Position numbers and translations under genes: made by a program. A stretch of DNA of 48,482 nt. Origin: Candidatus Thalassarchaeum betae. GTDB taxonomy: Archaea; Thermoplasmatota; Poseidoniia; Poseidoniales; Thalassarchaeaceae. Of this stretch, positions 4,447-6,007 are shown piece after piece. Below the pieces are notes generated by a model. It worked only from the letters and a program-made list of their open reading frames with translations. It was not told where the DNA came from and ran no database searches. The first letter of the stretch is position 1. Every line of letters starts with the position of its first letter. The stretch lies in contig JAKUUP010000009.1 in assembly GCA_022447095.1 (NCBI GenBank), positions 1-48,482 on the forward strand, written 5' to 3'.

Positions 4447-4455
4447 CCCGGCGTG

Positions 4456-4463
4456 CTTAAATG
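4456..4463 (+). promoter_or_regulatory. Probable TATA-like box for secE-spt5
   Basis: CTTAAATG lies 38 bases before the secE ATG. With the archaeal TATA-to-start spacing of about 25 bases, transcription would begin near 4485, leaving a short leader containing a G-rich ribosome-binding stretch (GGGGG before the ATG). Confidence 0.4.
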
Positions 4464-4500
4464 GGGTCTGTCGGTCGCCGGGTCGCTTTGGGGGTTAGTC

Positions 4501-4764
4501 ATGGCTATCGAAAGTTCCAATGTCGGTCCGATAGAGGAGACTGTGCAGGGCTGGCAAGATGGAATCGAGGGGCGCGTTCGTAGCCTCCAGACCGGATCTT
4601 ACGCCCGAATCCTCAAGATGGCTAGGAAGCCATCGAAGCAGGAGTTCCGCCAGACCGTGATAGTCTGTGGTATCGGGATGTTTATCCTCGGCGCCATCGG
4701 ATTCGTAATGCTGTGGTTGATGGATAGTGCCTTCCCGTCCTTCTTCGGTTGGCTCACCGACTAA
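4501..4764 (+). CDS. secE: Preprotein translocase subunit SecE (Sec61 gamma)
   Basis: Small tail-anchored subunit that clamps the SecY channel. The 87-residue product has an amphipathic N-terminal part, the conserved ILKMARKPSKQEF segment, and one C-terminal membrane helix (VCGIGMFILGAIGFVMLWL), exactly the archaeal SecE pattern. ATG 4501 is chosen because upstream codons in the open frame add a second hydrophobic segment that the family does not have, and because the promoter element lies between. It sits directly before spt5, the usual archaeal order, 12 bases apart. Confidence 0.92.
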   Translation: MAIESSNVGPIEETVQGWQDGIEGRVRSLQTGSYARILKMARKPSKQEFRQTVIVCGIGMFILGAIGFVMLWLMDSAFPSFFGWLTD

Positions 4765-4776
4765 TGAGATGATTAC

Positions 4777-5643
4777 ATGTCTGATGCTTTCACTGTCTAC
4801 ATCCGTAATGGGGAGAGGGTCCTGCTGATGCAGCGAGCTGATGGAGTCGCAGACTTCCCCGGGGCTTGGGACGGAATCTACGGAGTCGGAGATCCGGAAG
4901 ATTTGGACGCCGTCATCGCTAGGATTACCGAAGTCACTGGAATTGATGCAGAGAATCTCGAATACGTCCGTACTGGAGGCGCTCGAGGCCTCGCTTATGG
5001 AAACCGCCTCCAAGACGTCGCTCCGGTGCTCTTCGTCAGCGGAGTGGACGAGATCGATGCACGAGGCCTGTACAAGGGATTCGAATGGATCGACCCCGGC
5101 GATATCCAAAACAAGGAGTACGCCACTCCTCAGATCCGTGACATGTACGGAGACGTTGCTTCTTTCCTGTACATCCTCAAGACCTCTATCGGACAGGAGC
5201 AGAATGTTGCTAGGGAAATTCAAGCAAGGCTCTCTGGAACCGGTTCGCTCAGGGATATCCAAGACGAGGTCTTCGGTGTTCTCAGTCCGCACTTCATGCG
5301 TGGCTACATCTTCGTCGAAGCTTCTGCTCTGCACCATGTCGAGAAACTCATCGGGCGAGTTGGGGTCTCCACCACGCCAATGAAGAACTGTCGCAAGGTG
5401 CTCGGCGGGGAGTCTCCTTTGGGTGACGTCCTACCCTACCTCGAGCCGAAGGCGGCTACTGCCGGCATCGAAGAGGGTTGCATCGTGGAAATTCATGGCG
5501 GTGCCTTCCGCGGACAGGCTGCACGCGTAACCCGTGTTACCGAGTCCAAGGAAGAGGTTACGGTCGAGCTTTTCGAGGCGGCCGTTCCTGTGGCTCTGAC
5601 GGTGCGCGCCGATCAGGTTAGAGTGACTCAGCGCGTTGAGTAG
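4777..5643 (+). CDS. spt5: Transcription elongation factor Spt5 with N-terminal Nudix-like domain
   Basis: Residues ~129-222 form the NGN domain (FLYILKTSIGQEQNVA ... GYIFVEA), which binds the RNA polymerase clamp with Spt4, and ~228-285 form a KOW domain, the normal archaeal Spt5/NusG layout of ~150 residues. Residues 1-~125 are extra and read as a Nudix fold: VLLMQRADG, PGAWDGIYGVGD, a Nudix-box-like stretch at 36-56 ending ITEVTGI, and FEWIDPGDIQ with TPQI. The box keeps the glycines and one glutamate (E52) but lacks the REx2EE residues, so it is probably not catalytic. No stop or strong ribosome site separates the parts; an internal ATG at 5143 could start a separate NGN-KOW product but has no Shine-Dalgarno. 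Position between secE and uL11 supports the Spt5 call. Confidence 0.88.
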   Translation: MSDAFTVYIRNGERVLLMQRADGVADFPGAWDGIYGVGDPEDLDAVIARITEVTGIDAENLEYVRTGGARGLAYGNRLQDVAPVLFVSGVDEIDARGLYKGFEWIDPGDIQNKEYATPQIRDMYGDVASFLYILKTSIGQEQNVAREIQARLSGTGSLRDIQDEVFGVLSPHFMRGYIFVEASALHHVEKLIGRVGVSTTPMKNCRKVLGGESPLGDVLPYLEPKAATAGIEEGCIVEIHGGAFRGQAARVTRVTESKEEVTVELFEAAVPVALTVRADQVRVTQRVE

Positions 5644-5728: not shown

Positions 5729-6007
5729 ATGTCTGCACGTAACGAAACGCCGCACAAGGTGATTCAGACGCTGGGGCAGAAGACGTGTAACGGCTCCTGG
5801 GAAGAGGCTTCGGAGAACCTGACAATGGATCAGGTAAAGAAGATTGCAGAGGACCAGAAGGGCCGCCTGACAGGCGCTGATCTGTACGCTCGTTGCCGCG
5901 AGGTCATGGGTACCTGCGTCTCGATGCGAGTGCATGTTGAGGGTATGACTCCGAAGGATGCCCTGCAAGCAATGAGTGAGGGGAAGTTTAGCGAACATTT
6001 CAATTGA
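5729..6007 (+). CDS. rpl11: Ribosomal protein uL11, C-terminal domain only (N-terminal domain absent)
   Basis: The 92-residue product contains the rRNA-binding C-terminal domain of uL11: NLTMDQVKKIAEDQ, then REVMGTCVSMRVHVEG, then a C-terminal helix. That domain binds the GTPase-associated region of 23S rRNA. Archaeal uL11 is normally ~155-165 residues; here the N-terminal ~65-70 residues, including the proline-rich PGPPLGPALG helix region that contacts elongation factors, are missing. The first ~30 residues begin near the inter-domain linker. The bases from the Spt5 stop to the ATG hold a hairpin, TATA-like box and perfect Shine-Dalgarno, not a frame-shifted N-terminal domain, so the shortening looks genuine. 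Gene order (spt5-uL11-uL1-uL10-L12) confirms identity. Confidence 0.88.
   Translation: MSARNETPHKVIQTLGQKTCNGSWEEASENLTMDQVKKIAEDQKGRLTGADLYARCREVMGTCVSMRVHVEGMTPKDALQAMSEGKFSEHFN

Follow-up and report, generated by a model that had tools for sequence, protein, structure and literature searches.

A degenerate Nudix domain at the N-terminus of the elongation factor Spt5 in Poseidoniales archaea

Spt5/NusG is the sole transcription factor conserved across all life. The textbook architecture of archaeal Spt5 is an NGN domain plus one KOW motif (PMC3382729, PMC11616081); in T. kodakarensis the NGN domain carries Spt5 on the polymerase and also contacts the non-template strand immediately upstream of the bubble, and the KOW motif bridges to FttA (PMC11616081). 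Nudix proteins that bind without cleaving have been described elsewhere: CFIm25 binds RNA but has no hydrolytic activity (PMC3695940), and MsNrtR has lost its hydrolase activity, yet ADP-ribose releases it from DNA (PMC6800001). The Poseidoniales protein reported here shares with archaeal Spt5 (P. furiosus 3p8b, M. jannaschii 4zn1, T. kodakarensis 9bct) the domains of its residues 129-288, the secE/rpl11 operon position and the presence of an Spt4 gene, but carries an extra Nudix domain of ~120 residues ahead of NGN. Like NrtR (Nudix-wHTH), it has a degenerate Nudix domain of similar fold on a transcription protein, a likeness of fold rather than of tested sequence kinship; however, NrtR is a promoter-specific repressor with a C-terminal winged-helix DNA-binding domain, whereas the C-terminal part of Nudix-Spt5 is NGN-KOW, a general elongation factor. 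CFIm25 (NUDT21), which belongs to the RNA 3'-processing machinery and also has a Nudix domain devoid of catalytic glutamates, resembles Nudix-Spt5 in fold, but is a separate, eukaryotic, RNA-binding protein and not a fused archaeal domain. The C-terminal Nudix domain of MUTYH, a Foldseek match, is likewise accessory to a protein that acts on DNA, although MUTYH is a DNA glycosylase and not a transcription factor.

The window, i.e., the whole stretch of DNA analysed here, comprises 48,482 nucleotides of a Candidatus Thalassarchaeum betae contig (JAKUUP010000009.1). The open reading frame at 4777-5643 on the plus strand, which also carries all other features given with coordinates below, encodes a single protein of 288 residues made up of a Nudix fold and a normal archaeal Spt5, as identified with Pfam and TIGR00405. 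With ftsZ further upstream, the gene order is secE, Nudix-spt5 and rpl11, and then rpl1 and rplP0. Directly upstream lies secE (4453-4764, Pfam SecE), whose start codon is uncertain; rpl11 (5729-6007) encodes a uL11 of 92 residues that consists of the RNA-binding C-terminal domain only (Pfam PF00298 alone). No Rfam elements were detected within the window, and a search for a phage origin of the fusion gave no match. The Spt5 half was recognized by the TIGR00405 Spt5 equivalog model with 110.2 bits against a cut-off of 69.95, spanning residues 132-286. Within residues 129-288, NGN (residues 131-193, 5167-5355; PF03439) exceeded its own Pfam cut-off, while the KOW motif (residues 236-264, 5482-5568; PF00467) taken alone scored 19.4 bits, slightly below its cut-off of 22.3. 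The gene for the partner protein Spt4 was also found (PF06093, E 6.9e-12) and is present in the other Poseidoniales tested, which rules out that the Nudix domain replaces a lost Spt4.

An earlier note, made from the letters of the sequence, had read the residues ahead of NGN as a Nudix fold fused to Spt5 (NGN + KOW) in this one frame, and had proposed structure prediction as a check. Both the fold and the fusion were borne out. For residues 1-128, Pfam NUDIX (PF00293) gave 23.6 bits, above its cut-off of 21.1 (E 5.5e-5, covering 4-120), so that we place the degenerate domain at residues 1-120 (4777-5136). Just 8 of 18 fused members tested match this model singly, as one would expect if the domain is degenerate. 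When a profile was built from unfused relatives only, the domain of the window scored 51.2 bits, compared with 6.0 for the best of 2000 shuffled sequences. AlphaFold2 modelled residues 1-128 from 38 homologues with a mean pLDDT of 82 and a pTM of 0.79, showing Nudix strands and helices; in a full-length prediction NGN was poorly modelled. The Foldseek matches listed for this model all have the Nudix fold (RppH, NudI, M. mazei MutT 3grn, NrtR and the MUTYH C-terminal domain), with TM values of 0.74/0.69 for 3grn, 0.77/0.64 for E. coli RppH and 0.74/0.63 for the NrtR Nudix domain 3gz8. Sequence searches of the PDB returned weak Nudix matches only. Taken together, the Pfam match, the predicted structure, the Foldseek matches and the distance between 51.2 and 6.0 bits argue that the resemblance to Nudix is not due to chance.

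A fused frame of this kind could arise from a misassembly, or from a wrong start that joins two genes. We consider this ruled out with near certainty, given that the frame is shared among relatives and that a ribosome-binding motif is found at the outer start only. The fusion occurs in 58 of 60 close relatives and in all 25 high-quality ones, a few matches being fragments at contig ends, and the same open frame was recovered in 139 proteins from independent metagenome-assembled genomes (MAGs) and single-cell genomes. The survey of related genomes that the earlier note had called for thus uncovered a common fusion and not separate genes. Two Nudix-only frames (G006, G088) stop at contig ends, and one match (G052) starts 4 bases from such an end. 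Of 111 homologous genes, 95 have a Shine-Dalgarno (SD)-like motif before the outer (Nudix) start; at the internal Met that precedes NGN, such a motif was seen in a single gene out of 124. Production of a second polypeptide from this internal Met123 is unsupported, as the other 123 genes have no ribosome-binding motif there; moreover, 13 of the 124 have no ATG at this position, and 8 of those 13 have no TTG either. The simplest reading is a single polypeptide containing both Nudix and Spt5.

A class-wide search detected the full-length fusion in both Poseidoniales families, across 22 genera, and no complete Spt5 recovered from these families lacks it. We infer that the second of these families is Poseidoniaceae and that the neighbouring third family of the class is marine group III; Spt5 of this neighbouring family has no Nudix domain and begins with a short acidic stretch. 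In a sample of 243 genomes, no Nudix domain was found at Spt5 in any other Thermoplasmatota family. In the phylogenetic tree, the fused proteins of both families form one clade (SH-aLRT 100), which groups with an unfused Nudix family with moderate support (SH-aLRT 91) on a long stem of 1.57 changes per site. As a single fused clade spans both families, the simplest history is one origin on the Poseidoniales stem. One MAG assigned to Thalassarchaeaceae contains a second Spt5, without Nudix and 42% identical to the query, which resembles the MGIII type and probably lies on a contaminating contig.

The unfused family indicates where the domain came from. Outside the order, a profile of the fused domain found its best matches in small Nudix proteins from other members of Thermoplasmatota, with E values as low as 4e-18; these relatives scored 33-63 bits, while 35 other Nudix proteins of the same organisms reached at most 18. 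Profile-profile alignment of the fused and unfused families covered 122 columns with a probability of 99.1 and an E value of 4.8e-19, i.e., the homology runs from end to end over ~120 residues. The unfused proteins, which are not linked to Spt5, have an intact GX5EX7REUXEEXGU box and a DWE motif, whereas the fused domain has neither motif. In MGIII-like genomes the intact relative adjoins an amino-acid-kinase-family gene, which we read as isopentenyl phosphate kinase, near a ribosomal-protein-like gene. In other families, the Nudix domain is fused behind an aconitase-X (AcnX) swivel domain in one protein, an arrangement that Pfam confirmed in L294; in G420, too, both domains share an ORF. Mevalonate 5-phosphate dehydratase is the type II enzyme of aconitase-X (PMC8184944), and the swivel domain fused to Nudix is of the small-subunit type of this enzyme. 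By context, the unfused family is linked to isoprenoid (mevalonate) metabolism and not to RNA ends. A profile of the unfused family found no unfused orthologue in 18 Poseidoniales genomes, and in 17 of them its best match was the Spt5-fused domain itself; the gene either moved into spt5 or was copied there with the original then lost. As a separate observation, Poseidoniales and MGIII-like genomes contain an aconitase-X swivel domain within a long frame of ~550-640 codons, which suggests that the two subunits are here a single fused chain.

The remnant Nudix box occupies residues 36-56 (4882-4944; GVGDPEDLDAVIARITEVTGI) and ends in ITEVTGI, as the earlier note had it. Its further claim that the box is degenerate and misses most catalytic glutamates holds well beyond this one protein. 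In the window, R49 stands at catalytic E16, E52 at E19 and V53 at E20. Among 116 unique fused proteins, E16 is replaced by arginine in 115 and E20 is never a glutamate (C, S, A, V or T), while E19 is kept in 105; in the intact unfused relatives these three positions are glutamates in 22, 23 and 23 of 23 proteins, respectively. The fused box is also shortened, so that the intact pattern is not matched, and the DWE near the domain end, found in all or nearly all unfused relatives, is gone. All but one of the Mg-binding acids are lost. The case for an active Nudix hydrolase whose catalytic site is unusual, working on nascent RNA 5' ends or on nucleotides at the polymerase, could draw on the retained E19, through which residual metal binding is possible, and on the presence of RppH among the Foldseek matches, but the arginine at E16, the missing E20, box E and DWE and the shortened box make such an enzyme highly improbable. 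By its residues, the fused domain would lack catalysis.

Loss of the active site has not been followed by decay of the domain. Scaffold residues of the Nudix fold are kept (L16, R20, W31, G36, G55, W104), and several residues that are not fixed in the unfused family have become invariant in the fused one (R10, D32, R49, R70-G71, Y99, D106), although divergence is lower among the fused proteins than among the unfused ones, so that part of these invariants could reflect shared ancestry. A fusion-specific motif, W31-D32-G33 (4867-4875), emerged from the comparison of fused and unfused proteins; it is present in 116 of 116 fused proteins, with W31 common to the unfused relatives and D32 gained. 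Simple dN/dS estimates, for pairs in which dS could be estimated, gave 0.04-0.14 for the Nudix part and 0.01-0.03 for NGN-KOW. Most pairs are close to saturation in dS; the most suitable one (dS 0.76) gave 0.14 and 0.02. By these ratios the Nudix domain is under purifying selection. One could argue that it is a passenger, an accidental fusion without function of its own that persists as the start and translation signals of spt5 now precede the Nudix part. The several-fold faster evolution of this part relative to NGN-KOW and the loss of the active site are in line with such a history. We nevertheless regard it as improbable: no complete gene in the two families lacks the domain, dN/dS is well below 1, the fusion-specific invariants are spread across the domain, and the fold is still confidently predicted. 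The combination of lost catalytic residues and low dN/dS indicates, as far as sequence can tell, a domain that is dead as a standard Nudix enzyme, yet maintained.

As dead Nudix domains are known as binding modules in CFIm25 and MsNrtR, we favour a binding module here too; a sensor of metabolites is the chief alternative. In our preferred reading, to which we assign a probability of about 0.62, the domain is a non-catalytic module, derived from a mevalonate-linked Nudix protein, that binds to a partner of the elongation complex, either a protein or a nucleic acid. In an ancestor of Poseidoniales, such a Nudix protein would have become joined to the N-terminus of Spt5 within the secE-spt5-rpl11 operon. 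After the fusion, the metal site would have been lost, one catalytic glutamate giving way to an arginine that became fixed. Tethered ahead of NGN, the domain would sit on the elongation complex. It may have exchanged catalysis for binding and would travel with NGN on RNA polymerase, its most likely contact being a protein or nucleic-acid partner of that complex. Sensing of a nucleotide or an RNA 5' end, the role raised in the earlier note, is possible. In the rival reading, the domain would bind a small molecule, either a nucleotide or an isoprenoid diphosphate, but leave it uncleaved, with R49 supplying the phosphate-binding charge of the lost metals. It would then modulate elongation or termination by way of NGN, much as the dead Nudix domain of NrtR senses ADP-ribose. 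The retained pocket scaffold, the basic residue fixed at the metal site, the NrtR Nudix domain among the Foldseek matches and the link of the source family to mevalonate genes are all compatible with a sensor, but the metal-ligand acids are lost and the residues shared with the relatives may be purely structural, and we judge it a credible but unlikely explanation. For the binding module that we prefer, a metabolic Nudix origin together with lost catalysis leads to concrete, testable predictions on binding.

The gene next to spt5 has changed as well. The N-terminal domain of uL11 is otherwise universal. None of the 16 Poseidoniales genomes tested has L11_N, whereas all 9 of the other Thermoplasmatota tested and all 14 control genomes do; the truncated uL11 was seen in both Poseidoniales families. 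The gain of Nudix by spt5 and the loss of a domain by rpl11 fall on the same stem and in adjacent genes. It is tempting to speculate that Poseidoniales rewired a transcription-partner interface through both changes, and that the Nudix domain adds a regulatory contact to the elongation complex; candidates for the partner include FttA, the termination nuclease, as well as the ribosome or a metabolite of the isoprenoid pathway. We hold this broader proposal to be doubtful. A search of the open-access literature, with few subscription journals and preprints covered, found no report of the Nudix-Spt5 fusion or of the uL11 truncation in Poseidoniales. A fixed, ancient accessory domain in a group of ocean archaea that ranks among the most abundant (Marine Group II) indicates that even the core factor Spt5 can gain modules.

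The statement in the earlier note that archaeal Spt5 is normally just NGN + KOW stands as a description of the textbook architecture, but does not extend to many other Thermoplasmatota, whose Spt5 proteins have a different, unrelated domain of ~110-130 residues ahead of NGN. Given this second, unrelated pre-NGN domain, docking at the N-terminus of Spt5 may be a general feature of the phylum. Homology of that domain to Nudix is ruled out (hhalign probability 0.1-0.2). By its look it is beta-rich or beta-sandwich-like, and hhalign relates two of its subgroups to one another as homologues (E 7e-11).
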